Source of the DNA: Dehalococcoidia bacterium
Lineage (GTDB): Bacteria; Chloroflexota; Dehalococcoidia; DSTF01; JALHUB01
NCBI GenBank assembly: GCA_030018455.1
Contig: JASEFU010000001.1
Span: forward strand, 373,545 to 437,544
Direction: 5' to 3'
DNA length: 64,000 nt
Made by a program: the position numbers and the translations under genes. Below are positions 15,746 through 47,711 of the stretch, one piece after another. The stretch's first letter is position 1. Every line of letters starts with the position of its first letter. Below the pieces are notes generated by a model, which had not been told where the DNA came from, made no database searches, and saw nothing but the letters and a program-made list of their open reading frames with translations.

Positions 15746-15911
15746 GAGACGGAACACCGAAGGGAGTGATGGGCGGATCAAGGGACCGGACCAGCGCGTA
15801 GCGGCCTTGGGGCACGCCCGCCCTTAGAGAGCCCGTACCAGTCAAACCGCACTCTTTCGTTCATGGCGCAAAGCCTGCTGACCTTTCCGCCGTCCTCTTG
15901 CGAAAGCGAAC

Positions 15912-16613
15912 TCAGGTGGTCTGCACTTCGGCCTTCTCGGCCCTTGGAACGACCCCGCATTCGGCATCGACATCAGCCGCCCGCGGCCCGCCGGAACTGC
16001 TGACGTCCCAGTCTTTCACCGGTTCGATCTCGTCCAACTCGTCGAGAAGCCCCATCTCCGCCAGCCGGTCGTAGATCATCTGCCAGGCGCAGGGAACGTT
16101 CTCCGATATTTCGCACTTGCCGCCGGACGACCCACCGCAAGGCCCGTTGAACAGGCTCTTGGCGCACCTGACGAGGGGACAGATGGCCGCGGTCCGCCCC
16201 AGTACACACTTTCCGCATTGCGCACAGACTTCGACAAAGTGACCGGGCCTGTCCTCGATTCCGAGAAACAGGGTATCGAGCGCCGGATAGATCGGCTTTG
16301 TTTGGTGCAGGCTGATCGTTTGCACTCCAAACGAACAGGACATCACCAGGATGCAGTCGGCGGCGGCGATGTCTTCCGATTCCTCCCGCATCGCATCTGC
16401 AACGAGTTCGTCGCAGGCGGTGGGCACGACCATCCAGCCGGTGACCTTCTTGCCGCTGGTCTCGATTTCGGCTTTCATGGCCATGACTTCGGCTTTGCCA
16501 CCCGTGCGACACATGGTGGCGCAGGTGCCGCAGCCGATTATGTAGACACTCTGCCATCTCTCGATGTAACCCATGACTTCGGCCAGAGGCTTTTGTGCCG
16601 TAATTGTCTTCAT
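15912..16613 (-). CDS. metV: MetV-type methylene-THF reductase partner with zinc/iron-sulfur cysteine motifs
   Basis: A 233-aa protein of the family also annotated as MTHFR C-terminal. The N-terminal half has YIIGCGTCATMCRTGGKAEV; the C-terminal part has CAQCGKCVLGRTAAICPLVRC and then NGPCGG and KCEI, cysteine groups expected to bind Fe-S clusters or zinc. In acetogens MetV forms a tight complex with MetF and hands it electrons. The gene sits between the NuoF-like gene (12 bases away) and the kinase. The tail after about 205 is low in conservation. About 165 bases between it and the kinase hold no gene. Confidence 0.85.
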   Translation of the reverse strand: MKTITAQKPLAEVMGYIERWQSVYIIGCGTCATMCRTGGKAEVMAMKAEIETSGKKVTGWMVVPTACDELVADAMREESEDIAAADCILVMSCSFGVQTISLHQTKPIYPALDTLFLGIEDRPGHFVEVCAQCGKCVLGRTAAICPLVRCAKSLFNGPCGGSSGGKCEISENVPCAWQMIYDRLAEMGLLDELDEIEPVKDWDVSSSGGPRAADVDAECGVVPRAEKAEVQTT

Positions 16614-16625
16614 GCTGATTCCGCC

Positions 16626-17822
16626 TCAGTTGTCTACAGCCCGCTTCTCATAGTCTTCTCTGAAGTGCTTCAGGGTATCCAGTACGGGGAACGGCGCCGC
16701 CTGTCCCAAGCCGCACAGAGAAGTGAGCATCATCGTTTCAGACAGCCCCTCCAGGGCCCTGATGTCTTTTTTCGACCCCTTGCCCCTACAGAACCTCTCC
16801 AGGGTCTCGACCATGACCTCAGTCCCCTGCCGGCATGGGGTGCACTTACCGCAGGACTCGTCCGCCAGGAACTCTATGGTCTTGTGGACGATGTCTATTA
16901 CATCCCGGCTTTCATCGAACACCGTGACGGCGCCTGCGCCGAGGACGGTTTCAAAGGCGAGGGGAGTATCTATGAGGTTATAAGGCAGGATTCTTCCCGT
17001 GGCCCCGCCGATCTGCATCATCTTAACGTTGGAGGCCGAGGCCAGCTCCTCGACGAGTTCCCGCAGAGGGGTCCCCAGCACGAGTTCATACACGCCGGGC
17101 CGCGCCACATCGCCGCTCACAGAGAAGACCTTGGTGCCTTTGCTCCGCTCCGTCCCGATGCCGGAGAACCAGGCGCCCCCGTTAAGGATGATCTGGGGAA
17201 TGTTCATCAATGTCTCCACATTGTTTATGATCGTGGGCTTTCGCCACAGCCCGGCCACGGTCGGGAACGGCGGCCGGTAGCGGGGTTCGCCTCGCCGTCC
17301 TTCGATCGACTCCATTAGGGCCGACTCTTCCCCGCATACGTAGGCGCCCGCGCCCTCTCGAATGGCGATGTCAAAGCCATCGAGAAGTCCCGTCTGCGTG
17401 GCCTGATCGACGGCGTTTTCCAGCAGGCCGAGCAGGGAGTGGTACTCGTGACGAAGGTAGATATAGCCCTGTCCGGCGCCGATAGCGTGGCCTGCAATCG
17501 CAAGGCCTTCGATGAGAGTGAACGGGTCGTTCTCGAGAATGTACCTGTCCTTGAACGTGCCGACTTCTCCCTCGTCGGCGTTGCAGATGACGTACTTCTC
17601 TTCGCCGGGGGATTTCCTTGCCCCTTCCCATTTTGTGCCGCAAGGAAAGCCGGCGCCCCCTCTTCCGCGCAGTCCCGACGCCTTTACCTCTTCGATTACC
17701 TGCTCAGGCGTCATCTGCCGCGCTTTCTGCAGGGCTTTAAACCCGTCCCTTTCAAGGGAGGAGTCGATGCGCGTCGGGTCAATGGACCCGCAGTTTCTCA
17801 AGACGATCTTGGTCTGCGGCAC
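16626..17822 (-). CDS. NuoF/HoxF-like NADH-binding flavoprotein subunit
   Basis: A 398-aa protein with the FMN site LRGRGGAGFPCGTKW near 50-65, the NADH site CNADEGEVGTFKDR near 80-93, AYVCGEESALMESIEGRRGEPR, an SLBB-like segment, and the C-terminal [4Fe-4S] ligands SCGKCTPCRQG with a later SLCGLG. It lacks the N-terminal thioredoxin domain and C-terminal ferredoxin of fused HndC forms, so it is NuoF-like in layout. It should oxidize or reduce NAD(H). The start is GTG with GAGGAG six bases upstream. No other complex I genes are nearby, so the partner is most likely MetV/MetF. Confidence 0.9.
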   Translation of the reverse strand: MPQTKIVLRNCGSIDPTRIDSSLERDGFKALQKARQMTPEQVIEEVKASGLRGRGGAGFPCGTKWEGARKSPGEEKYVICNADEGEVGTFKDRYILENDPFTLIEGLAIAGHAIGAGQGYIYLRHEYHSLLGLLENAVDQATQTGLLDGFDIAIREGAGAYVCGEESALMESIEGRRGEPRYRPPFPTVAGLWRKPTIINNVETLMNIPQIILNGGAWFSGIGTERSKGTKVFSVSGDVARPGVYELVLGTPLRELVEELASASNVKMMQIGGATGRILPYNLIDTPLAFETVLGAGAVTVFDESRDVIDIVHKTIEFLADESCGKCTPCRQGTEVMVETLERFCRGKGSKKDIRALEGLSETMMLTSLCGLGQAAPFPVLDTLKHFREDYEKRAVDN

Positions 17823-17849
17823 GAGAGACTCCTCATTAATGGCTGAGCT

Positions 17850-18287
17850 TCATTCGTAGCTCTGCAAGACCTGCACTATTCTGGACGGGGTCAGGTCGCC
17901 GTGGGCATCGCTGTTCACAAGCATCGCCGGAGCTCTATCACAGAGGCCGATGCAATTGGTCAGCTCGAAGGAGAACCTGCCATCGGCGCTGGTCTCGCCC
18001 GGCCTGATCCCGATTTCCCTCTCCACCGTCTCGATGATCACGCGATTCTCTTTGAGATAACAGGGCACGCTCCGGCAGATCCTGATTACGTTTCTGCCCG
18101 GCGGCCTCATGTTGAGGAACGAGTAGAAACTGGCGACTCCGTAGACTGCATTAACGGGGAGACGCAGGGAACGGGCGATCTCTACCATCAAGGCCGGGGA
18201 CAGGTAGCCAGACTCGCGCTGCGCCTGCTGCAACGCTAGAAGCAGGTTGTTCGACGTGTCGCTGTGGAGGGTGACTTTCTTAGCCAT
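17850..18287 (-). CDS. NuoE/HoxE-like [2Fe-2S] thioredoxin-fold subunit
   Basis: The 145-aa protein has an N-terminal helical part (LLALQQAQRESGYLSPALMV) and a thioredoxin-like half with the [2Fe-2S] ligands in ICRSVPCYLKEN and later NCIGLCDRAPAML. One Cys spacing (CRSVPC) is the usual C-x4-C form. It pairs with NuoF-like proteins in NADH-linked hydrogenases, formate dehydrogenases and complex I. Its ATG follows the TGA of the HoxU-like gene directly, so translation should be coupled. Confidence 0.9.
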   Translation of the reverse strand: MAKKVTLHSDTSNNLLLALQQAQRESGYLSPALMVEIARSLRLPVNAVYGVASFYSFLNMRPPGRNVIRICRSVPCYLKENRVIIETVEREIGIRPGETSADGRFSFELTNCIGLCDRAPAMLVNSDAHGDLTPSRIVQVLQSYE

Positions 18288-18968
18288 TCATCCCGTCACA
18301 AACAGGGCCGGGCCTTTCTTCTTCTCGCGAACTTGAACCGGCTTGCTGAGGGCGCCCGTGGGACACAGCGAAATACAGACATCGCAATCGCGACAGGCCT
18401 CTTCGCTGCCCACGGACTCATCGAGCCCGTAGACAACCTTGCTGTCGAACCCCCGGTAGGCAACGCTGAACAGTTCTTGACCTTTGAGGTCGCGGCAGGC
18501 AGCGACACATCGACGACACATAATGCACTTCGACATATCGCGTACGATGTGCGGGTTCTCGTCCTCGACAGGATAGTAGTGCTTCCTTGTCCTGAACCGC
18601 GGCAGCCCGATGTCGAGATCTGCGGCGATCTTTCTCAGCTCACAGAGATTCGCCTTGTCGCAAACGAGACAGTTGTCGGGATGGCTGGCCAGCATGAGCT
18701 CGACGAGGGCGCGGCGCGCCTCGATGACTTTGGGGCTGTGCGTGTGTATTACCATGCCTTCCGCAACAGGGGTATGGCAGGAGCCGATTAGCGTCCTGAA
18801 CCCCTCGACCTCGACCACGCAGAGCCGGCAGGACCCAAACGGAGGCAGACCTTCCAGATAACAGAGCGTGGGGATATGGACTCCACTCTCGCGCGCGGCC
18901 TCAAGAATGGTGCTCCCTTCGCGGACGCCGACCGGAACGCCGTTCATTGTTATGCTTACGTCAGACAT
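18288..18968 (-). CDS. HoxU/NuoG-N-terminal-like iron-sulfur electron-transfer subunit
   Basis: The 226-aa protein holds a plant-type [2Fe-2S] domain (CYLEGLPPFGSCRLC and GSCHTP), a His-Cys [4Fe-4S] motif (HPDNCLVCDKANLC near 95-108), and two bacterial ferredoxin-type clusters (CIMCRRCVAAC and CRDCDVCISLCPTG). It stops before the molybdopterin-like domain of true NuoG. Such subunits wire a NuoEF pair to a catalytic partner. It is the first gene of the leftward unit. The start codon lies only seven bases after a -10 box, so the message is likely leaderless. Confidence 0.9.
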   Translation of the reverse strand: MSDVSITMNGVPVGVREGSTILEAARESGVHIPTLCYLEGLPPFGSCRLCVVEVEGFRTLIGSCHTPVAEGMVIHTHSPKVIEARRALVELMLASHPDNCLVCDKANLCELRKIAADLDIGLPRFRTRKHYYPVEDENPHIVRDMSKCIMCRRCVAACRDLKGQELFSVAYRGFDSKVVYGLDESVGSEEACRDCDVCISLCPTGALSKPVQVREKKKGPALFVTG

Positions 18969-18975
18969 GTGATAA

Positions 18976-19018
18976 GTATTACCTTATTGCTGCAGGATCG
19001 TCAATTCCGGAAGTTGAC
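18976..19018 (-). promoter_or_regulatory. Promoter of the NADH-linked MTHFR operon with overlapping palindrome
   Basis: On the minus strand, -35 TTGACG (18999-19004) and -10 TAATAC (18976-18981) are 17 bases apart. The -35 box lies within an imperfect palindrome, GTCAATTCCGGAAGTTGAC (19000-19018), whose other arm gives TTGACG on the plus strand facing the PEP-enzyme gene. The palindrome could be an operator that controls both directions. Confidence 0.5.
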
Positions 19019-19105
19019 GGCCTATGCGCCGAGCAGGGTAACGATGCATCCAGGCCCAGGGAAAAGAACAGCTTACGATGGCTGGGGGCAAGAGAAGGAG
19101 CGGAG

Positions 19106-20839
19106 ATGATCCCGAGAGTCTCGCCCGAGGCAGGAGAAGGAAGGCGATCTGAGTTCGACACGCCCACCGACAAGGATACGGTCTGGACCTCCGCCAACGT
19201 CCAGGAGGTGCTTCCCGATCAGTTATCGCCGATGTCGTGGTCGCTCATCGGCGATGTCCTCAACGAGGCGCGCCTCAGCTTCATGCGACGGGCGGGAATC
19301 AGGACCAGCAATCGAGACCCCTTCATCGGTCTCTTCTACGGGCGCCCCTTCTTGAACGTCTCCATGTTGCGAGAGGCTGCCGAGCAGATCAGCGGCAGCG
19401 CTCGAGAAGTGGATGAACAATTCCTAGGGATCACCGGCGAGACCGACGCACTTGCAAGGCCCAGACCCTTGCGGGAACGTCTTCGCCTCGCGGCGATCCT
19501 CCCCCGCGTTCTCTGGGTGTATTTGACGTTGCCCCGCGAGGTTCGCCGATTCCAGGAGTATGTGGAGACAATGGAGGCCGAGGAGGAAGTCAGACCGCTG
19601 GAACAGTCTGGACTTGATGAGCTCGTCACGTTGATGATTAACCGTCGTGGAGAGTCGAAAGCGAAGGCAGGAGTCCATATCGCTGTGTCCGCGGCCGCGG
19701 GTTCTGCCTTCGCCCGGTTGGGCCACCTTACCAGACGCTGGCTCGGTGACGAGACCGGCGCGTTGCGGGACTGTCTGTTGGGCGGCTGGGCGAGCGTGGA
19801 GAGCGCCCGCCCCGCGTATGATCTGTGGAACCTTTCGCGAATCGTCCTAGCGTCACCGCGGCTGACCGAGGCGTTCGCGCCGAAAGAGGGAAGGGAAATC
19901 GAACGCCGGCTGCGCACGCTCGAAGGGGTGAACGCAGAAGAGTTCGGGCGCCGCCTGAAAACGTTCCTCAAACGGCACGGACACCGCAGCGTCATGGAAG
20001 GAGACATGTCTGCGGCAACCTGGTCGGAGGACATCCCTTCTCTCCTTGTTATTATCCGCAACTACCTCGGCGCGACGGCATCCAGTGATCCTCGCCAAAT
20101 TGAACAACGGCAGCGGCAAGAGAGACGGCTGGCCACCCACCGCGCCCTCAACCGCCTGAATTGGTGGCAGCGTCCTCTTTTCCGGTTTTCGTTGCGGCAG
20201 GCCCAGAAGTACGTCAGCCTGCGCGAGCATTCCAAGTCGCTCCTGATCAGGGCAAACGACCGTGCGCGCCGGGTGATGCGGGCGCTGGCGGAGAGACTCG
20301 TCCAGAAAGGACTGCTGGACGACGAGAGGGACGTTTTCTACCTGACGTGGGAGGAGGCGATCTCCCTGGCGGAGGGCAGGCTCACGCCGGAAGGGGCGGC
20401 GGAGGCGGTACGGCGCAGAAGAGCGGAAGAGGCCAAGAATCGAGACGTGCGTCTCCCGGGAACCTTCACCGGGTATCCGACACCCCTGGCCAGCGAGGCG
20501 ACCGCTGAATCTCAGGGCAACGTCCTTCGCGGTCTGCCGGTGGCGCCCGGGCGGGTCACGGGTCCGGCGAGACTTGTACTCGACCCTCGGATCGATGCCG
20601 CGATCCGGCCCGGCGAAATCCTGGTTGCGCCCGTAACCGATGCGGCGTGGACCCCCCTGTTCGTGATGGCTGCGGGCATTGTTGTGGACATCGGCGGTAC
20701 CCTTTCCCACGGCTCGATAGTGGCGCGGGAGTTCGGCAGGCCCGCCGTCGTCAACACCAGGATCGGCACGAAGGTGATCGAGACAGGGCAGATAATCACG
20801 GTAGACGGATCGCAGGGGCTCGTCATACTGGAGGGCTGA
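19106..20839 (+). CDS. PEP-utilizing-enzyme homologue lacking the ATP-grasp domain
   Basis: This 577-aa protein ends in a swivelling phosphohistidine domain: GLPVAPGRVTGPARLVLDP, EILVAPVTDAAWTPLF, then GGTLSHGSIVAREFGRPAVV with the catalytic His near residue 535. The preceding 450 residues are helical and resemble the linker region of PEP synthase-like and rifampicin phosphotransferase proteins (SLREHSKSLLIRANDRARR, DVFYLTWEEA). No N-terminal ATP-grasp domain is encoded here or next to it, so on its own it could not carry out the usual ATP-dependent reaction. The ATG at 19106 with GGAGCGGAG upstream is preferred; an open frame extends 159 bases further upstream into the promoter. It diverges from the metF operon. 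Confidence 0.75.
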   Translation: MIPRVSPEAGEGRRSEFDTPTDKDTVWTSANVQEVLPDQLSPMSWSLIGDVLNEARLSFMRRAGIRTSNRDPFIGLFYGRPFLNVSMLREAAEQISGSAREVDEQFLGITGETDALARPRPLRERLRLAAILPRVLWVYLTLPREVRRFQEYVETMEAEEEVRPLEQSGLDELVTLMINRRGESKAKAGVHIAVSAAAGSAFARLGHLTRRWLGDETGALRDCLLGGWASVESARPAYDLWNLSRIVLASPRLTEAFAPKEGREIERRLRTLEGVNAEEFGRRLKTFLKRHGHRSVMEGDMSAATWSEDIPSLLVIIRNYLGATASSDPRQIEQRQRQERRLATHRALNRLNWWQRPLFRFSLRQAQKYVSLREHSKSLLIRANDRARRVMRALAERLVQKGLLDDERDVFYLTWEEAISLAEGRLTPEGAAEAVRRRRAEEAKNRDVRLPGTFTGYPTPLASEATAESQGNVLRGLPVAPGRVTGPARLVLDPRIDAAIRPGEILVAPVTDAAWTPLFVMAAGIVVDIGGTLSHGSIVAREFGRPAVVNTRIGTKVIETGQIITVDGSQGLVILEG

Positions 20840-20909: not shown

Positions 20910-21404
20910 CTAGTAGATGATCGCGGTGTCGCGCTCGGTGGCGACCAGCTTCCCCTGCTGGTTGTAAAGGTTGGTCTCCGTGGTCAGGAAGAGCATCAGG
21001 CCGAGGCTGCCTTTTCGCTCCTGGAGGCCGACGACTTTGGTCACGCTTTTCAAGACGTCGCCCGCGCAGATGTCTTCGCCGTAGTACTCAAATTCCGTGC
21101 CGCCGTTGAGAATGTTGCGTATCTCCAGGCCCGGCAAAGCGGGAGTCCGCCTGATGGAGCTGCCGACAATCTCCGAAGGGTTTTGAGGGGTGTGGATGGC
21201 ATGCCCGAGGAAGCCGGGCGGGCAGATGATGCTGCGGTGCCCCTTGCTCCTGGCATACTCCTCGTCGTAGAAGACGAGGTCGGTGTGGCCCACGGCGCGG
21301 GCGAACATGCGGACAGCCGTCCTGTCGACTTCGATGGTCAGAGGCTCCCCTTCCTTCCCGACGGCCGCGCGCAACTCGTCGGTGATGAACGACTCTTCAC
21401 TCAC
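20910..21404 (-). CDS. MaoC/FAS1-type hydratase-dehydratase domain protein
   Basis: A 164-aa single hot-dog-fold protein. The N-terminal FAS1-like dehydratase pattern is seen in VDRTAVRMFARAVGHTDLVF, then ICPPGFLGHAI, then LNGGTEFEYYGEDICAGDVL. Such proteins hydrate enoyl-CoA esters, often as one half of a pair. The GTG start used has GGAGG eight bases upstream; an earlier GTG would overlap that site. It follows the acyl-CoA dehydrogenase gene by 38 bases, so dehydrogenation followed by hydration of one acyl-CoA is plausible. The 70-base spacer to the convergent PEP-enzyme gene holds a GC palindrome at 20893-20904. Confidence 0.8.
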   Translation of the reverse strand: MSEESFITDELRAAVGKEGEPLTIEVDRTAVRMFARAVGHTDLVFYDEEYARSKGHRSIICPPGFLGHAIHTPQNPSEIVGSSIRRTPALPGLEIRNILNGGTEFEYYGEDICAGDVLKSVTKVVGLQERKGSLGLMLFLTTETNLYNQQGKLVATERDTAIIY

Positions 21405-21442
21405 GACACGCACCTCCTTGCGGGCAACCGCCGGCTACTCCG

Positions 21443-22627
21443 CTATCCCCGCGGCAGGCCTAGCCCGCGCACGGCGATGATGTTCTTCTGTATCTCCGAG
21501 GCGCCGCCGCCGACCAGCATGGCGATGGCGTACAGGTACGACTTCTGAAAGCGGCCCATGAAGAGCGCTCCCTTCGAGTCCTTTTCGAGCTGCCCGTACA
21601 GCCCCAGTATCTCGATGCCCGCGTTCGATACCCTGACGTCGAGCTCGGTGTTGTAGAGTTTGCACACGGCGGCTTCGATGCTGCCCGGCTCGCGCTTCGC
21701 GTGCAGCGACACGACGCGGTAGGTGAGATACTTGCCGACTTCGATCTCGATCGCCAGCTCCGCCAGCTTGTGGCGGACCTGAGGGTTGTCGAGCAGCCTC
21801 CTGCCATCGACCTTCGTTTCCTTGCAGTACCCGATGAGGTCGTCCAGGTTGCGCCTGGCCATAGAGATTGCCGCCGCCACGAGGCTGGAGCGTTCGAGGT
21901 CCAGGGTCATCGCGGCGATGTACCAGCCCTGGTTCTCCGGCCCGAGAAGGGCGCTGCTGGGAACGCGCACGTCCTCGAAGAACACCTGATTGAAGCTGTG
22001 CACGTTCGCCATATTGACGATCGGCTGCACGGTGATCCCTTTTTCCTTCATGTCCACGAGGAAGAAGCTGATCCCTTTGTGCTTGGCCGCCGCCGGGTCG
22101 GTGCGGGCGAGAAGGATGCACCAGTCGGAGCGATGGGCGTTGCTGGTCCAGATCTTGCTCCCGTTGATGATGTAGTCGTCGCCGTCACGCACGGCGCGGG
22201 TGGTGAGGGAAGCGAGGTCGGAGCCCGCCTCCGGCTCGGAGAAGCCCTGGCACCACACGACTTCGCCGGCGCTAATTGGAGGCAGATGCTGCCGCTTCTG
22301 CTCCTCGGTGCCGAAGAAGAGGATCGCGGGGCCGATGTAGCCCACGGCCTGCACAATCGAGCCGATGGGGGCCCGGTGGTAGCCCATCTCCTCGTTGTAG
22401 ACGAGTTGCATGGCGGGGGAGGCTTCCATGCCGCCGTATTCCTTTGGCCAGGCCGGCGCCACCCATCCCTTCGCGGCCAGCCTCTTGACGAACGCCCGGC
22501 CGGTCTTCCAGGCCTCTTCGTCCTCTTCGAGAAAGACGCCCTCCCAATCGGGCGGCACGTTTTCCTGCAACCAGGACCGCAGCTCCCTGCGGAACGCCTC
22601 GTCTTCGGGACCGAAGCGAAAGTCCAT
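21443..22627 (-). CDS. Acyl-CoA dehydrogenase
   Basis: The 394-aa protein has the family layout of helical N domain, beta middle domain and helical C domain. Visible motifs are WCQGFSEPEAGSDLASL and YIINGSKIWTSNAH in the middle domain (FAD and substrate binding), and near the C terminus GLYGQLEKDSKG and GGGASEIQKNIIAVRGLGLPRG, the usual FAD-binding end. It should oxidize an acyl-CoA to the 2-enoyl-CoA and pass electrons to an ETF, but no ETF gene is present in the window. It is transcribed with the hydratase gene. Chain length and substrate cannot be read from the sequence. Confidence 0.92.
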   Translation of the reverse strand: MDFRFGPEDEAFRRELRSWLQENVPPDWEGVFLEEDEEAWKTGRAFVKRLAAKGWVAPAWPKEYGGMEASPAMQLVYNEEMGYHRAPIGSIVQAVGYIGPAILFFGTEEQKRQHLPPISAGEVVWCQGFSEPEAGSDLASLTTRAVRDGDDYIINGSKIWTSNAHRSDWCILLARTDPAAAKHKGISFFLVDMKEKGITVQPIVNMANVHSFNQVFFEDVRVPSSALLGPENQGWYIAAMTLDLERSSLVAAAISMARRNLDDLIGYCKETKVDGRRLLDNPQVRHKLAELAIEIEVGKYLTYRVVSLHAKREPGSIEAAVCKLYNTELDVRVSNAGIEILGLYGQLEKDSKGALFMGRFQKSYLYAIAMLVGGGASEIQKNIIAVRGLGLPRG

Positions 22628-22811
22628 GCGACCGCCCCCATGTCTTCGCAGCGGCCCGGCCTCCGGCTAGGCGACGATCATCGTCCGACGCCCGGCCCGC
22701 CGCCGCTCGCGACAAAGGCGATTGTACTCCGCCCGCGGACAACATTCCACCTCGGGCTGAACGTCGAATTGCTGAAGGGCGACCCGGCAGGACGGCAGTT
22801 GAACCAGCTAC

Positions 22812-22839
22812 TTGACGCAGCGCGATCGGGATGTATTAT
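22812..22839 (+). promoter_or_regulatory. Promoter of the branched-chain-type binding-protein gene
   Basis: TTGACG (22812-22817) and TATTAT (22834-22839) are separated by 16 bases. The 327-base gap between the acyl-CoA dehydrogenase start and this gene holds no other feature I can support. Confidence 0.5.
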
Positions 22840-22954
22840 TGGCACTTTAAAGGCCCATACGGCCCACCCATCGCCACGGCCGACGCTCAGGCCAACAAAC
22901 GGCCGCAAGAGGCAGGACCGGCACGCTGCCGGTTGTACCACAAGGAGGACTACG

Positions 22955-24304
22955 ATGCGAGCAGTCTTGGGCCGATGGCCCTCGCTCCTGGCAGCCGCCA
23001 TAACAATAGCCCTGCTGCTGGCGGCGGGCTGCGGAGAAGGCGAAGACGAAGACGCCGTCACGCCCGGCGCGACGCCTGAAGCCACCGCCGAACGGACTCC
23101 ATCCGCCGAGGTGCCCGGCGTAAGCGACACTGAAATCAAGATCGGGACGCTGCTCCCCCTCAGCCAGACCGCCGCCGCCGCCTGGGGCGTGCCCATCTCC
23201 AAGGGCATGCAGGCGTACTACGACTACATAAACGATCAGGGCGGGATCTACGGCCGGAAGATCAACCTCATCGTCGCGGACAATCAGTACAGCGGCCCTG
23301 TTGCCGGCGAGGCCGTTCGGAAGCTGGTGGAACAGGAGAAGGTCTTCGCCATCCAGGGGAGCCTCGGCACCGCCGCCCACAGCTCCGTCTGGCGGTACCT
23401 GGAGGAAAACGGCGTGCCGGACATGTTTATCCTCACAGGCAACACCAAATGGACCGAGCCTGCTGCGCGAAACCGCTTCGGCCTCCTCGTTGACTACATC
23501 ACCGAGGGGCGGCTGCTCGGCAAGTATGTCGCCGAGAACTTCAAGGGCAAGAAGCTGGGCATCCTCGCCCAGAACGACGACTTCGGGAAAGAGGGCGAGA
23601 AAGGCCTGAAGATGGGCGTGGAGGAAAACGACGGCGACATGGAGTTCGTCGTCGAGTACTACGATGAAACGCAGAACGACGTCACCAACCAGATCCAGCG
23701 TCTGAAGGCGGCAAACGTCGACGTCATGGCCTTCTACACCATGCCCGTCCAGGCCGCGAGCGGTTTCAAGGTCGCCCGCGAGACCCTGAGCTGGGACGTC
23801 CCCGTCGTCATCAGCGGCGTGGACGCGGTCGAGGTCGTCGCCACCCTCTCCGGGTACGATAACATCGAAGGCGCGGTGTCGGTGGTGTTCGGACACCAGG
23901 CGTTCGAGACCGACAACCCGGGCATCGCCAAGCACCACGAGATCATGGCCAAGTATGCGCCGGGAGTCGCGGTGGACAACCTGACCCTCCTCGGCGAGTT
24001 CATCGGCGAATACATGGTGCACATTCTCAAGCAGACGGGCCCGGACCTGACGCGCGAGTCCTTCCTTGACGCCGCGGAATCGATGTGCAAATTCCAGTGT
24101 TCCGCCTGCATGGTGCCCTCGAGCATGAGCCCCACGGACCACCGGCCGATCGAGGTGGAGGTGTACCTGCGGGCCACTGTGGACCGCTCGACCGACCCGC
24201 CGACGTTCAGGTGGGAGCCCTTCGGCGAGCCGTTCGGCTTTGAGTCAACGGAAGACTGCGTAACACCGACGCCACCTCCCGGCTACGAGGAGCAACCGGA
24301 GTAA
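22955..24304 (+). CDS. Branched-chain-amino-acid-type ABC substrate-binding lipoprotein
   Basis: The 449-aa protein starts with a lipoprotein signal (ITIALLLAAGC, Cys about residue 26), a Pro/Thr/Glu-rich linker, then a LivJ-type periplasmic-binding fold: EIKIGTLLPLSQT, YYDYINDQGGIYGRKINLIV, and EFVVEYYDETQNDVTNQIQRLK. This family binds amino acids, amides, short acids or aromatic compounds. AAGGAGGAC lies just before the ATG. No livHMGF permease or ATPase genes are in the window, so it either uses a distant transporter or acts as a sensor. It is surrounded by acyl-CoA genes, which suggests a carboxylate ligand. Confidence 0.88.
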   Translation: MRAVLGRWPSLLAAAITIALLLAAGCGEGEDEDAVTPGATPEATAERTPSAEVPGVSDTEIKIGTLLPLSQTAAAAWGVPISKGMQAYYDYINDQGGIYGRKINLIVADNQYSGPVAGEAVRKLVEQEKVFAIQGSLGTAAHSSVWRYLEENGVPDMFILTGNTKWTEPAARNRFGLLVDYITEGRLLGKYVAENFKGKKLGILAQNDDFGKEGEKGLKMGVEENDGDMEFVVEYYDETQNDVTNQIQRLKAANVDVMAFYTMPVQAASGFKVARETLSWDVPVVISGVDAVEVVATLSGYDNIEGAVSVVFGHQAFETDNPGIAKHHEIMAKYAPGVAVDNLTLLGEFIGEYMVHILKQTGPDLTRESFLDAAESMCKFQCSACMVPSSMSPTDHRPIEVEVYLRATVDRSTDPPTFRWEPFGEPFGFESTEDCVTPTPPPGYEEQPE

Positions 24305-24407: not shown

Positions 24408-26000
24408 CTAGTACTTAACAGCCTTGCCGTACTTCTCGCGCAGCACCGTCTTCAGCACCTTCATCGTCGGGTTTCGCGGCAGGGCGTCGGTGAAATCGAC
24501 CGACTTCGGCTTCTTGTAGCTTGCGAGGTGCTGCTTGCAGAACTCGATGACCTCTTCTTCGGTCAGAGTCTCGCCCGGCTTGGGCACCACCACGGCCTTC
24601 ACCGCCTCGCCCCACTGCTCGTCGTAGACGCCGATGACGGCCGCCTCCAGGATCTTGGGGTGCCGGTAGAGCACCTCTTCCACCTCGGCGGGATAGACGT
24701 TCTCCCCGCCGCTGATGATCATGTCCGTCTTGCGGTCGACGATGTAGATGTAACCTTCCTCATCGCGTCGCACCATGTCTCCGGAATGGAACCACCCGTT
24801 CCTCATGGCCCGGGCTGTTCCCTCCGGGTCCTTGTAGTACTCCTTCATGATGTTGGGTCCCTGGTAGACGGCCTCCCCGATCTCGCCGACGGGGACGTCT
24901 CGGTCTTCGTCGTCGACCACGCGGATCTCAATGAGCGGGAGGCCCCTACCGACAGAAGCGACCTTCCGCTCGCTCTCGGAGGGCCCGATTATGGAGACGA
25001 GGGCGCCGGTCTCGGTCTGCCCGAAGCAATCGTAGACCAGAAGGCCGGGAAATCGCTCCGTCATCGCTCTGCGCGTCTGGGTAGGAAGGACGGCGGCGCC
25101 GGAAACCCATATCTTGAGCGAACTGAAATCGTACTTCTCTATGTCGGGCAGCAGCAGGAGAAAGCTGGCCATGGCAGGAATGAGGAGGATGGATATGATC
25201 TTCTCTCGCTCAATGATCTCCATGATCTCGTTCGGGTCGAACGTCTGGGTGGGCAGGACGACCGTCGCGCCGACGAGGAGATGCGCCTGGCAGTAGCCGA
25301 AGGAAGCGAGATGGTATAGCGGCGGAGGCGAGCAGACCCGGAAGTCCCACAGATTGCCCACTCCGGGCTCAGAGGTCACCTGCAAAGAGGCCAGGAGCCA
25401 CATGATAACCTGGCCCTTATGGGTTATCACCGCGCCCTTAGGCCTGCCCGTGGTCCCTGCCGTGTACATGATGAATGCGGCGTCGTCCTCATCGACAAGG
25501 ACGAGCGGCTCCTCTTCCGGATAGTCGCGGATCAGGGTCTCGTAGTGGAGCATCCCTTCCACCGGCTCCCTCGAAACGGATATGTATTGCCGGACCAGCG
25601 GCAGGTCCTTCGTAATCCCCTTCACAGTGTCCGCGAACTGTTCACTGATCACGACGGCCACGGCATCGGCATTGTTGACGATGTAGGTGATCTCTTCCGG
25701 ATGGAGCCTGAAATTGACGGGCACCGCTACCGCCCCAATCTTGGCGAGGGCAAAGTAACACTCAAGGTACTGATTGCAGTTCGTCATGAGAAGCGCGACC
25801 TTCTCGCCCTTGCCGACACCCATCTCCAGGAAGGCGTGAGCCAGGCGGTTTATCCGGCCGTTGAACTCCCGGTAGGTGAGGCGAGTGTCGCCGAATATGA
25901 GGGCTTCCTTATCGGGGAACTTGCGGGCGTTTCGAGCTATCAGTTCTCCCAGGAGCAGCCTGCGCGCGAGTTCCTCCTGGACCGTCTGCCCAAACGTCAT
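24408..26000 (-). CDS. Acyl-CoA synthetase (AMP-forming)
   Basis: The 530-aa ligase belongs to the ANL superfamily. The P-loop is IMYTAGTTGRPKGAVITHKG, the hinge and motif region is GWFHSGDMVRRDEEGYIYIVDRKTDMIISGGENVYPAEVE, and the C-terminal catalytic Lys region reads NPTMKVLKTVLREKYG, where most relatives have GK instead of MK. It activates a carboxylate to its CoA thioester via an acyl-adenylate. The open frame extends about 100 codons upstream, but the ATG at 26000 has GGAAGGAG eight bases before it and matches the family start. It is oriented toward the binding-protein gene. Confidence 0.9.
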   Translation of the reverse strand: MTFGQTVQEELARRLLLGELIARNARKFPDKEALIFGDTRLTYREFNGRINRLAHAFLEMGVGKGEKVALLMTNCNQYLECYFALAKIGAVAVPVNFRLHPEEITYIVNNADAVAVVISEQFADTVKGITKDLPLVRQYISVSREPVEGMLHYETLIRDYPEEEPLVLVDEDDAAFIMYTAGTTGRPKGAVITHKGQVIMWLLASLQVTSEPGVGNLWDFRVCSPPPLYHLASFGYCQAHLLVGATVVLPTQTFDPNEIMEIIEREKIISILLIPAMASFLLLLPDIEKYDFSSLKIWVSGAAVLPTQTRRAMTERFPGLLVYDCFGQTETGALVSIIGPSESERKVASVGRGLPLIEIRVVDDEDRDVPVGEIGEAVYQGPNIMKEYYKDPEGTARAMRNGWFHSGDMVRRDEEGYIYIVDRKTDMIISGGENVYPAEVEEVLYRHPKILEAAVIGVYDEQWGEAVKAVVVPKPGETLTEEEVIEFCKQHLASYKKPKSVDFTDALPRNPTMKVLKTVLREKYGKAVKY

Positions 26001-26216
26001 TGGCGGCGCTCCTTCCAGCTTCAATACTTCGCGACACGGGGCCGCGCTTCCGTTCGAGCGTCCGGCGGGTCGCGCTTCGACGGCGGCGCGCCGACAGCAT
26101 TTTATCCGATCTTTTCGGGGATCGTAAGGTACCCCTTGAATCTCGCCAGTCGGTGTCGCTTCCGGCCAGGGTTGACCGCTAATGCCAACAAATGGCAACT
26201 TAGGGCAACGGATCCA

Positions 26217-26699
26217 ATGCGCCCTGAGAAAACGATCCTGTTTGTATGCACGGGGAACACCTGCCGCAGCCCGATGGCGGAAGCGCTGTTCAACAAGGCG
26301 GCTTCCGCCGCTCAATCGAATCTACGCGCGGAGTCCGCCGGTCTCCACGCCGGCAATGGCGTCCCGGCAACCGATAACGCCTGCGCGGTAATGCGGACAC
26401 TGGGCATAGACATCTCCTCTCATCGCAGCCGCCGGCTCACGAGGGAGCTCATGGACAGGGCCGACCTCGTCCTCGCCATGTCGACGGTCCAGCGGGGGCG
26501 CGTCGTGGCGTCATTCCCCGACGCGAAGGGCAAGGTCAGGGTGCTCGGCGAGTACGCCGGCACAGGCGTCGACGTAGACGACCCCTTCGGCCGGACCCTC
26601 GAAGCGTACCACCGATGCGCGGAGCAGCTCTCGCAACTGGTAGCGGCCGTCCACAACCGCCTGGCCCATTGCGATGAGACGGGGGAAACGCAGGAGTAG
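26217..26699 (+). CDS. Low-molecular-weight phosphatase, probably protein-arginine phosphatase (YwlE-like)
   Basis: The 160-aa protein has the phosphatase loop FVCTGNTCRSPMAEALF, with nucleophile Cys11 and Arg17, and a C-terminal DPFG holding the general-acid Asp. The Thr directly after the nucleophile is the feature known to favour phospho-arginine over phospho-tyrosine in YwlE. A partner arginine kinase (McsB) is not in the window. The longer open frame upstream is antisense to the CoA ligase and is not taken as coding. Confidence 0.85.
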   Translation: MRPEKTILFVCTGNTCRSPMAEALFNKAASAAQSNLRAESAGLHAGNGVPATDNACAVMRTLGIDISSHRSRRLTRELMDRADLVLAMSTVQRGRVVASFPDAKGKVRVLGEYAGTGVDVDDPFGRTLEAYHRCAEQLSQLVAAVHNRLAHCDETGETQE

Positions 26700-26862: not shown

Positions 26863-28011
26863 GTGAGCGGCAGAGTATGTATCGTCGGTATCGGTCAAAC
26901 GCATCACCGCGGCCCGGGCGGCGACCTCGCGTACCATGAGTTCGGCTTCCACGCAGCGAAGGCCGCCATGGAGGACGCAGGCCTGACGCGAGGCGACATC
27001 GATACCGTGCTCGCCTCCGGCTGGGACGTCCTCGACGGCCGCACCATCTCCGACATGCATCTCGTCCCCGCTGCCGGCGGCTATTTGAAAGACTCCGCCA
27101 AGGTCGCGGACGACGGCATTCTAGCCTTCGCCTACGCCTACATGCGGATCGCGAGCGGCGCCTTCGACACGGCGCTGGTGATGGGCCATGGGCACGCCGA
27201 GGCGCCCACGGAGCTCGTGAGCAACGTGGCGATGGACCCCTTCTTCTATCGCCCGCTCGGCATGAGCGCGACGCCCGCTCTCGCCCTTCAAGCCTCCTCC
27301 TACGCCTCCCGCTACGGGGTCGGCGAGAATCAGGCGGCGGCCGTCGTCGAGAAGAACCGGCGGCAGGGCGCGAACAACTCCTGCGCACATCTCCAGAAGC
27401 CGGTCACCCGGGAGGAGGTGCTTTCCTCAGAGATGGTCGCCTGGCCTCTGCATGCGCTCGACTGCGCGCCGAAATCGGTGGGCGCGGTCGCCCTCGTCCT
27501 GTGTTCTGAAGACAGGGCAAAGCGGATCAGCGCCCGCTGGGCCACCGTCGAGGGCATCGGCTGGGCCACGAGCTCGTACCACATCGGCGCCGTTGACCTC
27601 TGGCGGCTCGACGCTCTGGCCCAGGCCGCGGAGGCGGCGTACGCGATGGCCGGCATCGACGATCCCCTCGGGCAACTGGACGTGGCCGAGATACACGACG
27701 TGACCTCCTATCACGAGCTCATGACCTACGAGGCGTTGGGATGGGCCCCGGAAGGCGGCGCGGCGGCGCTTCTCGAGCAAGGGGCGACGTCAATGGGGGG
27801 CCGTTTGCCCGTTAACCCGTCCGGGGGCGCGTTGAGCACTAACATCGGAGCGGGGACCGGCCTCGTGCGGGTAGCGGAAGCGGCGCTTCAGGTGTTGGGG
27901 CGCGCCGATGGCCGCCAGGTCGAGGCGCGGACGGCCCTCGCTCACGGCGTGAGCGCCCTGACGGGGTCGGTCGCGCAAACGCACGGCGTAGTAGTCCTGA
28001 GGGGGAGGTGA
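26863..28011 (+). CDS. Thiolase-fold protein lacking the catalytic cysteine (first of pair)
   Basis: The 382-aa protein aligns with SCP2-type thiolases over its length (VCIVGIGQTHH, then LDVAEIHDVTSYHELMTYEALG, then LPVNPSGGALSTNIGAG). The loop that normally carries the nucleophilic Cys instead reads ILAFAYAYMRIASGAFD, without Cys. The GHPxG motif of the second catalytic Cys/His region is replaced by STNIGAG, although the His in AEIHD is kept. It therefore cannot be a normal thiolase. Known Cys-less thiolase-fold proteins include non-catalytic partners and the retro-aldolase Ltp2. Start is GTG with GGAGGGAG upstream; the stop is three bases from the next gene. Confidence 0.85.
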   Translation: MSGRVCIVGIGQTHHRGPGGDLAYHEFGFHAAKAAMEDAGLTRGDIDTVLASGWDVLDGRTISDMHLVPAAGGYLKDSAKVADDGILAFAYAYMRIASGAFDTALVMGHGHAEAPTELVSNVAMDPFFYRPLGMSATPALALQASSYASRYGVGENQAAAVVEKNRRQGANNSCAHLQKPVTREEVLSSEMVAWPLHALDCAPKSVGAVALVLCSEDRAKRISARWATVEGIGWATSSYHIGAVDLWRLDALAQAAEAAYAMAGIDDPLGQLDVAEIHDVTSYHELMTYEALGWAPEGGAAALLEQGATSMGGRLPVNPSGGALSTNIGAGTGLVRVAEAALQVLGRADGRQVEARTALAHGVSALTGSVAQTHGVVVLRGR

Positions 28012-28014
28012 GCG

Positions 28015-29187
28015 ATGCCGCGGCGCGTCGCCATTGCCGGCGTCGGTCTGACCCGCTGTTCGAGCTGGCGGAAAGACGTAGCGTACCCTGAGCTCGTGTA
28101 TGAGGCGACGAGTGCTGCCCTTCAGGACGCGAACGTTACCCCCGACGACGTGAATGCCGTCGTGTACGGCTCCATGGACCCCTTCGATGGCCTGAACGCG
28201 CCGGAGAAATGGAACGTGGACGCCTGCGCGGCCGCGGGCATGCTCGGGAAGCCGTATCTCAAGATAAGCACGGGCGGGACGACCGGCGGCTCGACGGCTC
28301 TCGCAGCCTACTATCACGTCGCTTCCGGCCTGTACGACGTCGTGCTGGCGGTCGCCTCGCAAAGGGTGGGCGAGACGCTGGAGGCGCAGCTCGTCCTCAA
28401 CACCGCTGTCGACCCCGTTTACGAGCGCGGCTTCGGGATGGGCGCCATCACTGTCGCTGCCATCCAGGCGTGCAGCCACATGCACTACTACGGCACGACC
28501 GAAGAGGACCTGGCTCTGATATCGGTCAGGAACCACGAGAACGCCATGAACAATCCTTACGCGCACCTGCGCGTCAAGTTCAGTGTGCAGGATGCCCTCA
28601 GCTCGCCGATGCTGTCCTGGCCGCTGCGGCTTTCCGATTGCTGCCCGTCCTCCGACGGGGCGTGCGCCATCGTCTTCGCCTCGGAGGAGAAGGCCCGCAG
28701 GCTGGCCCCACAGCCGGCGTGGATCACAGGCGCGGGCCAGATCACCGACAACTACTTCGCCGGCGACCGCCCCTGGTACGAGGACTGGGACAGCCTGGCG
28801 ATGCTGGCCCGGCGCGTCTATCGCATGGCCAAGGTGGACGACCCTCTACGGGAATTCGACGTGGCCGAGCTGTACAACGCCTTCACCATCCAGGAGATCC
28901 TCGAATATGAGGCGCTCGGCTTCTGCGAGCCGGGTAAGGGCGCGGAGATGGTGCGAAAGGGCGTGACGGCCATGGACGGGCAGCTCCCGGTATGCCCTTC
29001 CGGCGGCGTTCTGAGCACCAACGCCATCGGCGCGTCAGGGCTCGTTCGCGTGGCGGAGGCGGCGCTTCAAGTGATGGGCAAGGCCGACAAACGGCAGGTG
29101 CCCAACGTGAAGAAGGCACTGGCCCACGCGTGGGGCGCGACAATCGGGTTTCACACGCTGATGATTCTGGACCGCGAGGCCCCGTAG
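28015..29187 (+). CDS. Thiolase-fold protein lacking the catalytic cysteine (second of pair)
   Basis: The 390-aa protein is related to its upstream neighbour. The nucleophile loop reads ISTGGTTGGSTALAAYYHVA, with Thr/Gly where Cys is expected. The AEvHD-type His is replaced by Tyr (AELYNAFTIQEILEYEALGF), and GHPxG is replaced by CPSGGVLSTNAIGASG. Tyr residues are the catalytic groups in the steroid retro-aldolase Ltp2, so aldol chemistry is a reasonable inference. GGGAGGTGA precedes the ATG and overlaps the previous stop. It is followed by a DUF35 gene, the partner type needed by both archaeal thiolases and Ltp2. Confidence 0.85.
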   Translation: MPRRVAIAGVGLTRCSSWRKDVAYPELVYEATSAALQDANVTPDDVNAVVYGSMDPFDGLNAPEKWNVDACAAAGMLGKPYLKISTGGTTGGSTALAAYYHVASGLYDVVLAVASQRVGETLEAQLVLNTAVDPVYERGFGMGAITVAAIQACSHMHYYGTTEEDLALISVRNHENAMNNPYAHLRVKFSVQDALSSPMLSWPLRLSDCCPSSDGACAIVFASEEKARRLAPQPAWITGAGQITDNYFAGDRPWYEDWDSLAMLARRVYRMAKVDDPLREFDVAELYNAFTIQEILEYEALGFCEPGKGAEMVRKGVTAMDGQLPVCPSGGVLSTNAIGASGLVRVAEAALQVMGKADKRQVPNVKKALAHAWGATIGFHTLMILDREAP

Positions 29188-29206
29188 GCCTTCGGAGGAT
29201 GCTGCC

Positions 29207-29677
29207 ATGACCTCTCAGCAAGAAGAACCTCTGACAATCGACGGCCGGTGGGACATCCCTTACCGTCACACCGCCGGCCAGGCTGCCTCTCGCTTCTTCC
29301 GCGAACTGAAGGAGAACAAGCGCATCGTGGGAGGGCGGTGCCCGAGCTGCCGGCGCGTCCTCGTGCCGCCGAGAAGCTTCTGCGAACGGTGCTTCGTGCC
29401 CGTCGAAGAGTGGGTCGAGGTGGGCGACAAGGGCACCCTGGAGACCTTCACCATCGTCTACGCCCAGTTCACCAGCCTTCCTCCTCCACCCTATTGCGTC
29501 GGCGTAATAAAGCTCGACGGCGCGGACACCGGCCTTATCCACTACGTCGGCGGCGTTGACTTGCAGGACCTGGAGGCAGCCAAGAAGGCGCTGAGCGTCG
29601 GGATGCGCCTGCAGGCTGTCTGGCGCGACCAGCGCGAAGGGAAGATAACCGACATCGAGTATTTCACGCCGGCCTAG
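29207..29677 (+). CDS. DUF35 OB-fold protein with zinc ribbon (acyl-CoA-binding partner)
   Basis: The 156-aa protein has an N-terminal helix region (ASRFFRELKENKRIVGG), a rubredoxin-like zinc ribbon (CPSCRRVLVPPRSFCERC) and an OB-fold (GDKGTLETFTIVYAQF, ending ADTGLIHYVGG). In the archaeal acetoacetyl-CoA thiolase/HMG-CoA synthase complex and in the Ltp2-ChsH2 aldolase complex this domain holds CoA or the acyl chain between enzymes. It lies 19 bases after the second thiolase-fold gene and should form a complex with one or both. The ATG has GGAGGATG upstream. Confidence 0.9.
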   Translation: MTSQQEEPLTIDGRWDIPYRHTAGQAASRFFRELKENKRIVGGRCPSCRRVLVPPRSFCERCFVPVEEWVEVGDKGTLETFTIVYAQFTSLPPPPYCVGVIKLDGADTGLIHYVGGVDLQDLEAAKKALSVGMRLQAVWRDQREGKITDIEYFTPA

Positions 29678-31435: not shown

Positions 31436-31560
31436 GAATCCGTGCCGCGTCCACTCTGGAACGACGGCAGGGCCCGGGGGAGTCCCGACCCGCGCGGCAA
31501 AGCCGGGTGCAGGGCTTGCGGCGACAACACTGAGGGATGCACATCAAGAAGGGAGGAGAC

Positions 31561-33090
31561 ATGAGGACCAAAGAAGAGTACATCCGCGGACTGGCCAAGA
31601 TGCGGCGCAACATCTACTTCAACGGCGAACTCATCGACCGCACCGACGAGCTGCAGATGGACTGCCTCAACACTATCGGCACTACGTTCGACGAAGCGGC
31701 CAGGCCGGAGAACCAGGAACTGTGCACCGCCATCTCTCACCTCACCGGAGAGCGGATCAACCGTTTCACCCACATTCATCAGAACACGGATGACCTGCAC
31801 AGGAAGCAGGACATGACCCGCATGCTCTGCCAGAAGATCGGCGGTTGCATTCAGCGCTGCATGGGGATCGACGCCACGAACGCCATCTACAACGTATCCT
31901 ACGAAGCCGACAAGTCCAACGACGGCACCACCAACTACCACGAGAACTTCAAGAAGTGGCTTATCCGCTTCCAGACGGAGGACCTGGTCGGCTGCTGCGC
32001 CCAGACCGACGTCAAGGGCGACCGCATGCTGCGGCCCGCCGATCAGCCCGACCCCGACGCCTACGTCCACATCAAAGAACGCCTCCCGGACGGCATCGTC
32101 GTCAGCGGCTGCAAGCTCCACATCTCCGAAGCCTCCGTGGCCGATGAGATACTGGTCGTGCCCACGAGGGCCCTGCGCCCCGAGGACAAGGACTATGCGG
32201 TCGCCTTCGCCGTCCCCGGCGACTGGGAAGGCGTGAAGCAGGTGGTCACAATCCACAACCTCCGGCCGAGGGAGATCTACAAGCGCGGCTTCGTGCCCGG
32301 TTCGACCGACTCCTACGTGATCTTCGATAACTGCTTCGTCCCCTGGGAGCGGGTCTTTCTCGCCGGCGAATGGCAGCACGGAGGGGTGCTTGCTCTCCTG
32401 TTCGCCCTGTTCCACCGCCACTCCTACTCCGGCTGCAAGCCTGCCATCGGCGACCTGATCCTGGGCGCGGCCGCCCTCGCTGCTGAAGTGAACAACATTC
32501 AGAAGGCGCCGCACGTGCGGGAGAAGCTGGCGGAGATCATCATGACCACCGAGCTGGGGTACGCCGCCGGCTACACTGCCTCCGACCTTGGCAAGCCGGA
32601 GGTCTACATGCCCGGCGTCGGCTTCGTGCCCTACGGCCCCGGCTCCTATATCCCCAACTCGATTTACTGCAATGTGGGCCGCTGCTTGACCGGCGAGGCG
32701 GTCTTCCGCGAAGCCGAGATCCTCTGCGATATCTCCGGCGGCGTGACGGCGACCTTCCCCTACGAGCGCGACTTCGCGAACCCGGAGACCGGCGATCTGC
32801 TCCGCAAGTACACAAAGCGGAGCCCCACAATGGACGTCGAAGACCAGGCGCAGTTCTGGCGCTACCTGGGCGACATCCTCTGCTCCGCCGCGGGCGGGAT
32901 CCACAACATCGGCTCCTACCACGGCGGCGGGTCGCCTGTAATGGAGCAGATTGCAATCACCACGCAGTACAACATGGAGGCGCGGAAGAAGCTGCTGCGC
33001 TACATCGCCGGGATGAGCGGCGGAGACCGCGAGGCGCTGGTAGACGCCACAACGCGGTATCAGCCCAAGGAAAAGACGCCGGTCAAGTAG
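31561..33090 (+). CDS. 4-hydroxybutyryl-CoA dehydratase / vinylacetyl-CoA isomerase type protein
   Basis: The 509-aa flavoprotein belongs to the 4-hydroxyphenylacetate-3-hydroxylase superfamily. It carries all four ligands of the [4Fe-4S] cluster of the Clostridium aminobutyricum enzyme at matching spacing: Cys96 and Cys100 in GGCIQRCMG, and His285 and Cys292 in FHRHSYSGCK. This separates it from the cluster-free oxygenases and supports a radical dehydration of 4-hydroxybutyryl-CoA or a close analogue to crotonyl-CoA. AAGGGAGGAGAC precedes the ATG. The upstream CoA ligase could form the thioester. No 4-hydroxybutyrate dehydrogenase is nearby, so substrate identity remains open. Confidence 0.88.
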   Translation: MRTKEEYIRGLAKMRRNIYFNGELIDRTDELQMDCLNTIGTTFDEAARPENQELCTAISHLTGERINRFTHIHQNTDDLHRKQDMTRMLCQKIGGCIQRCMGIDATNAIYNVSYEADKSNDGTTNYHENFKKWLIRFQTEDLVGCCAQTDVKGDRMLRPADQPDPDAYVHIKERLPDGIVVSGCKLHISEASVADEILVVPTRALRPEDKDYAVAFAVPGDWEGVKQVVTIHNLRPREIYKRGFVPGSTDSYVIFDNCFVPWERVFLAGEWQHGGVLALLFALFHRHSYSGCKPAIGDLILGAAALAAEVNNIQKAPHVREKLAEIIMTTELGYAAGYTASDLGKPEVYMPGVGFVPYGPGSYIPNSIYCNVGRCLTGEAVFREAEILCDISGGVTATFPYERDFANPETGDLLRKYTKRSPTMDVEDQAQFWRYLGDILCSAAGGIHNIGSYHGGGSPVMEQIAITTQYNMEARKKLLRYIAGMSGGDREALVDATTRYQPKEKTPVK

Positions 33091-47658: not shown

Positions 47659-47711
47659 AAACACCTCCCGGACGCAGTACGCCATCGACCAAGGGCGGGG
47701 GGATGGCGCTC

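Follow-up and report, generated by a model that had tools for sequence, protein, structure and literature searches.

A tandem pair of cysteine-free thiolase-fold genes followed by a DUF35 gene in a Dehalococcoidia genome: a candidate two-subunit retro-aldolase akin to Ltp3-Ltp4

We analysed a stretch of 64,000 nucleotides (the window) of contig JASEFU010000001.1 from a Dehalococcoidia bacterium, whose genome assembly comprises 2.38 Mb in 26 contigs and is 97.7% complete. When its 16S gene was compared with a plasmid collection, the best match was Thermomicrobium roseum (80.8%), which suggests Chloroflexota. Three consecutive genes of the window encode two thiolase-fold proteins, A and B, and a DUF35 zinc-ribbon/OB protein, at exactly the open reading frame (ORF) coordinates claimed in an earlier note on this DNA. 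This A-B-DUF35 cassette probably encodes one heteromeric retro-aldolase of the Ltp3-Ltp4 kind that would cleave 3-hydroxyacyl-CoA, with B as catalytic subunit, A as inactive partner and the DUF35 protein as scaffold. We hold this reading with moderate confidence.

The cassette is compact: 3 bp separate A from B, 19 bp separate B from the DUF35 gene, and 35 bp lie between the latter and a CoA ligase gene which, judging from the spacing, is probably co-transcribed with it. A matched Thiolase_C_1, and B both Thiolase_N and Thiolase_C_1, all above Pfam gathering scores. Thiolase-superfamily NCBIfam models matched A and B with E-values of 3e-70 and 2e-105, and solved thiolases matched them with 4e-32 and 1e-48, respectively. 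The third protein carries PF12172 and PF01796, also above gathering scores, and the four cysteines of its CxxC...CxxC ribbon are intact.

Active-site columns were scored in a 64-row alignment that included 23 B-type, 22 A-type and 7 Ltp2/Sal-type sequences and 10 thiolases, the B rows having been picked as downstream cassette partners or Ltp3-type proteins, and not by their Tyr. The nucleophile column was Cys in the 10 thiolases and Gly in all 7 Ltp2/Sal-type and all 23 B-type rows; Cys was found in 0 of the 22 A-type rows, and A of the window has Gly. Around this site B reads KISTGGTTGGST and A reads KVADDGILA. Alignment to thiolases ruled out a displaced nucleophile, no shifted Cys being present in either protein. 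In one B-type protein, that of locus L049, a Cys lies in an adjacent column, the nucleophile column itself being Gly. The GHP His column holds His in all 10 thiolases and Asn in every one of the 23 B-type rows (Asn336 in the window), and Asn also replaces this His in A of the window. The His of HDxF was found in all 10 thiolases and is Tyr in all Ltp2/Sal-type (7/7) and B-type (23/23) rows; the A-type rows are mixed there (7 His, 5 Tyr, 5 Ser, 3 Asp, 1 Phe and 1 Cys). In the window, B has Tyr287 in this place and A has kept the His. Neither protein thus has the residues of an SCP2-type thiolase (a nucleophile Cys and two active-site His), A retaining one His only. The earlier note had described both proteins as devoid of the nucleophilic Cys and of the GHP motif, and only the second as having Tyr for the thiolase His, which the alignments bear out.

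Tyr287 occupies the column of CtSal Tyr302, described as essential, and of TcLtp2 Tyr294, described as the base (PMC12329534), so that the catalytic Tyr sought by comparison with Ltp2 is indeed found in B. The second catalytic residue differs: TcLtp2 Tyr344 aligns to the GHP His column, where B has Asn336, and CtSal Cys304 aligns to Ala or Pro in B-type proteins (Ala289 in the window). Ltp2 chemistry is therefore not transferable wholesale to B, which has one half of the aldolase machinery described so far. Since it recurs in every B-type row examined, the signature of B is not due to chance, and the strict conservation of Tyr287 and Asn336 over deep divergence suggests catalysis.

The earlier note had likened the arrangement to Ltp2-ChsH2. 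Ltp2 is not the nearest known system, as the pair falls outside the Ltp2/Sal clade and is kin to Ltp3-Ltp4. Grouping B with Ltp2/Sal was rejected in the approximately unbiased (AU) test (p-AU 0.0003), and the second catalytic residue of that clade is also absent; the pairs of L056 to L058 were excluded from the A and B groups of the test because the tree places them elsewhere. In the tree, Ltp3 fell inside the B clade (support 100/98) and Ltp4 inside the A clade (99/99); Ltp2/Sal and the thiolases lay separate from both. In Amycolatopsis dendrobii the best match of B, 38% identical, belongs to PRK08313 (734 bits, cut-off 514), and its gene is preceded by those of a PRK07937 protein (587 bits, cut-off 419) and of a 339-residue protein in which we read two putative DUF35-like units. 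The same locus (L075) holds EchA19 (432 bits, cut-off 400) and FadD-type ligases, and it matches the gene order Rv3521-ltp4-ltp3 given for M. tuberculosis (PMC6429209). From order, family and neighbours we infer that the two Amycolatopsis genes are Ltp4 and Ltp3. The primary paper on Ltp3-Ltp4 is reportedly that of Wilbrink in 2012. Later papers call Ltp3-Ltp4 a heteromeric aldol-lyase that acts on C24-branched sterol side chains (PMC6678751) and describe Ltp3 and Ltp4 as aldol lyases (PMC8708139, PMC4761994).

Relatives of A (E 1e-40 or better) were present in 52 of the 197 genomes searched. Among the 150 matches listed, 114 had another listed match on the same strand within 400 bp, which makes at least 57 pairs in at least 34 genomes, with as many as three A-B pairs per genome. 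These are lower bounds: of the 85 rows scoring at least 200 bits, 17 lacked a partner among the matches listed, and at least one of these 17 (G124:C114:2604) does have one, ranking below the list. The upstream member was the more A-like in 53 of the 57 listed pairs, order and spacing being near-constant. Twenty fetched regions contained 20 complete A-B cassettes and one broken by a contig end (L043). DUF35 was present in all 21 complete cassettes, that of the window included, as two genes in 14 and as one in 7 (the window and six others); both CxxC knuckles were kept in all 35 DUF35 ORFs listed from the fetched regions, as in that of the window. Distances among A and among B proteins were correlated (Mantel r 0.89, p 0.0001, 22 pairs), a correlation to which shared species history contributes. 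Because A and B are co-inherited and the A site is variable, one heteromer with one working site is favoured. Of the heteromeric or two-substrate enzyme envisaged in the earlier note, the first option was thus strengthened and the second found no support.

Of 393 genomes of the class, 31 had a match to B at E 1e-90 or better; the 17 listed ones from the same family or order had none. Being sporadic in its family and order, the cassette of the window may have been acquired. Scans of viral contigs found no relative, and a single scan of genome contigs found one distant locus. Two other arrangements were seen. At positions 8465-17387 of L106, two A-B-DUF35 cassettes are adjacent on opposite strands, followed by a PRK08257-type thiolase-like protein and an enoyl-CoA hydratase. 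In L041 (7409-9628, minus strand), a long-branched thiolase-like protein with GGATG and HDAF motifs adjoins a 333-residue DUF35-containing protein, beside the orthologous cassette.

The reaction that we propose would run as follows. B would hold 3-hydroxyacyl-CoA in the former thiolase site, Tyr287 would remove the proton of the 3-hydroxyl, and the C2-C3 bond would break by retro-aldol cleavage, releasing a carbonyl product (ketone or aldehyde) and a shortened acyl-CoA. No covalent acyl-enzyme intermediate would form, because the Cys is gone. A, co-inherited and with a degenerate site, probably widens or shapes the pocket, and DUF35 would hold the complex and the CoA, as a probable scaffold or acyl-CoA-binding subunit. 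The substrate would be a CoA ester, possibly produced by the adjoining ligase, and perhaps a branched 3-hydroxyacyl-CoA. The retro-aldolase with DUF35 put forward in the earlier note thus remains the best supported reading, through the Tyr of B and the kinship with Ltp3/Ltp4; its Ltp2-like second residue is missing.

Gene neighbourhoods were surveyed on 101 of the 115 flanking ORFs of the fetched regions (14 short ones were dropped, and L044 contributed no flanking genes). Raw family counts were 11 acyl-CoA dehydrogenases, 7 ECH, 6 AMP-binding, 5 CoA_trans, 4 MaoC and 3 short-chain dehydrogenases. No 3-hydroxyacyl-CoA dehydrogenase family was found among 25 Pfam families that cover every family matched by at least 2 of the 101 neighbours. 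One relative's region runs ECH, acyl-CoA dehydrogenase, CoA ligase, MaoC, DUF35, A, B, DUF35; from ECH to DUF35 it would provide, judging by gene content, the set needed for making and cleaving 3-hydroxyacyl-CoA. An acyl-CoA dehydrogenase lies directly upstream of the cassette in L040 and L107. Both subunits of 3-oxoacid CoA-transferase were found nearby in 4 of 7 orthologous loci (L041, L043, L106 and L107), and acetoacetate-CoA ligase in three of these four, all three from one genus; their adjoining in some loci hints at acetoacetate release. Hydroxymethylglutaryl-CoA (HMG-CoA) lyase scored above cut-off in 1 of 12 genomes, which is not that of the window. A search that covered KshA among steroid genes found KshA_C in none of 8 genomes. 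This counts against a steroid substrate degraded by the 9,10-seco route, and the substrate is probably not a steroid.

These observations allow a bolder proposal, which we regard as speculative and unlikely to be right: such cassettes would be non-steroid, two-subunit 3-hydroxyacyl-CoA lyases, an unrecognised thiolase-fold counterpart of HMG-CoA lyase with several paralogues per genome. In the orthologous loci nearest to that of the window, the product would be acetoacetate or some similar keto acid, taken up by the adjoining acetoacetate-CoA ligase and 3-oxoacid CoA-transferase.

Several points weigh against a retro-aldolase of the Ltp3-Ltp4 kind. In neither characterised aldolase is the second catalytic residue (Tyr344 of Ltp2, Cys304 of Sal) one that B shares. 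The Ltp4 row has a very long branch (2.01), which makes its placement unsure, and a B clade without Ltp3 was not firmly rejected (p-AU 0.057). Both proteins score below the NCBIfam cut-offs, B with 353 bits against 514 for the Ltp3-type PRK08313 and A with 131.8 against 419 for the Ltp4-type PRK07937; they are therefore relatives of Ltp3-Ltp4 and not members of the same subfamily. The support for Ltp3-Ltp4 activity is itself genetic, as conveyed by the citing papers. Short-chain dehydrogenases (3 of the 101 neighbours) could serve as 3-hydroxyacyl-CoA dehydrogenases, and the acyl-CoA dehydrogenase and hydratase of the window are linked to its cassette by distance only. Finally, AlphaFold models, built on three-row alignments, were poor (predicted local distance difference test, pLDDT, 36 and 42).

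Four other explanations were considered. DUF35 is also described in the acyl-transferring PhlABC, in the thiolase BbsAB and in the archaeal HMG-CoA complex (PMC12329534, PMC2954200), and trypanosome TbSLP is reported as a very slow malonyl-CoA decarboxylase (PMC12329534); the pair might likewise perform some other Cys-free acyl-CoA chemistry of this fold, either decarboxylation or C-acyl transfer. We find this unlikely: acyl transfer normally requires the Cys, which none of the 23 B and 22 A rows has; CtSal, which shares this Gly and Tyr with B, is reported not to decarboxylate malonyl-CoA (PMC12329534); and the tree points to Ltp3/Ltp4 instead. It is also doubtful that A and B each form a homodimeric enzyme of their own, with its own substrate, and share one DUF35. 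His or Tyr does stand at the HDxF site of A in 12 of 22 rows, and the two DUF35 genes of 14 of the 21 complete cassettes may be one per thiolase; the near-constant order and spacing of A and B, their mirror trees (r 0.89), the degenerate site of A and the single DUF35 gene of the window and six further cassettes speak for a heteromer. Aldol reactions are reversible, and the enzyme could accordingly work in the synthetic direction, coupling an acyl-CoA to a ketone or aldehyde; with catabolic neighbours as frequent as those counted above (acyl-CoA dehydrogenases, ECH, CoA ligases and MaoC), this is very unlikely. Least probable of all is a non-catalytic acyl-CoA-binding or scaffold complex, suggested by the fact that, of the classical thiolase catalytic residues, B has none and A only one His, and by the original proposal of DUF35 as an acyl-CoA binder or carrier (PMC2954200), since the strict conservation of the Tyr and Asn of B argues for catalysis.

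Table 1. The cassette and nearby genes of possible relevance (window coordinates)
Feature	Position	Strand	Remarks
Subunit A, Ltp4-side thiolase-fold protein, 382 aa, GTG start	26863-28011	+	HDVT motif; TN for GHP; no Cys
Subunit B, Ltp3-side thiolase-fold protein, 390 aa, ATG start	28015-29187	+	Gly for Cys; Tyr287; Asn336
DUF35 protein, 156 aa	29207-29677	+	zf-ChsH2 zinc ribbon and OB_ChsH2_C
AMP-forming acyl-CoA ligase, 509 aa	29713-31242	+	PRK06187 above cut-off
Acyl-CoA dehydrogenase, 394 aa, possible enoyl-CoA supplier	21443-22627	-	Cassette link by distance only
FAS1_DH-type hot-dog protein, 167 aa, possible hydratase	20910-21413	-	Adjoins acyl-CoA dehydrogenase; cassette link by distance only
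Second AMP-forming CoA ligase	24408-26315	-	ORF start probably too far upstream; cassette link by distance only
HpaB-fold protein nearest 4-hydroxybutyryl-CoA dehydratase/vinylacetyl-CoA isomerase	31537-33090	+	294 bp gap after ligase

The acyl-CoA dehydrogenase, hot-dog hydratase-type protein and CoA ligases that the earlier note invoked as suppliers of the substrate are present (Table 1), the tie of the first two to the cassette being their distance. The HpaB-fold protein, which Pfam assigns to HpaB, possibly belongs to the same pathway. A hydroxylase identity was rejected for it, as its best solved match was the dehydratase 1u8v (319 bits, versus 112 for the best hydroxylase). It conserves both Cys of SCFQRC and the His and Cys of HRQSYGGC, which we take to be the ligands of a [4Fe-4S] cluster. 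By BLAST, no counterpart of the hydratase-type or HpaB-fold protein was found beside the orthologous cassettes; the acyl-CoA dehydrogenase of the window was outside the query sets.

Further features were noted elsewhere in the window. A run of genes for methylenetetrahydrofolate reductase (MTHFR), a protein of MTHFR C-terminal type and NuoE-, NuoF- and NuoG-like proteins, together with a histidine kinase and a response regulator (13332-18968, minus strand), may encode an NADH-linked MTHFR complex. A 630-residue protein (18947-20839, plus strand) has a C-terminal phosphohistidine domain of phosphoenolpyruvate utilisers; among NCBIfam models it scores best with that of the prodigiosin ligase RedH, where its 218 bits fall far short of the cut-off. 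The 867-residue ORF at 21701-24304 (plus strand) overlaps the acyl-CoA dehydrogenase gene on the opposite strand and resembles a periplasmic binding protein in its last 400 residues only, so that its true start must be much later. Finally, 45499-47685 (minus strand) encodes an arylsulfotransferase-family protein of 728 residues.

Thiolase-fold aldolases characterised so far come from steroid degradation; here, relatives of two-subunit type recur in a class of bacteria in which no KshA was found among the members sampled. Retro-aldol cleavage may be a more widespread route around the two final beta-oxidation steps for acids whose oxidation to a 3-ketone is impossible. With its strict Tyr/Asn/Gly signature, B offers a simple re-annotation test for many proteins named 'thiolase domain-containing' or 'lipid-transfer', and the A-B pair offers a model for the little-characterised Ltp3-Ltp4 enzyme. 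Our literature search found no paper linking SAR202, Chloroflexota or Chloroflexi with thiolases.

Among known systems, BbsAB and the archaeal thiolase/HMG-CoA synthase/DUF35 complex resemble the cassette by their SCP2-type thiolase fold and DUF35 scaffold, and differ from it in being true thiolases: 6esq retains the Cys and both His, and B scores 161 bits against a cut-off of 750 with the BbsB model. The best NCBIfam model of A is PRK06066, an archaeal-type 'thiolase domain-containing protein' without assigned function (237 bits, cut-off 516). Ltp2-ChsH2(DUF35) and Sal-Shy(DUF35) resemble B in having the thiolase fold, a Gly where thiolases have Cys, the catalytic Tyr in the HDxF His column and a DUF35 partner; they differ by their single thiolase-fold subunit, their separate clade and the Tyr344 or Cys304 that B lacks. 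A second putative aldolase, this one of the Ltp2/Sal kind, is encoded in the same genome outside the window (L059, 1447-2679, plus strand): it is a single Sal-like thiolase-fold protein that has a YDCY motif and Gly in place of Cys, and a DUF35 gene comes next. The closest likeness is with the Rv3523/Rv3522/Rv3521-type locus of Ltp3-Ltp4, which also combines a tandem Cys-less thiolase-fold pair with a linked DUF35, B and Ltp3 having the same Tyr and an SNPIGA/TNAIGA motif. The DUF35 of the window is however a separate single-unit gene instead of a double-DUF35 protein, the order is A-B-DUF35 and not DUF35-Ltp4-Ltp3, A has 382 residues versus 350, and the neighbours are different, with no KshA in the window's genome. 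By sequence, the pair appears to be kin to Ltp3-Ltp4, yet below its subfamily cut-offs and in another metabolic setting.

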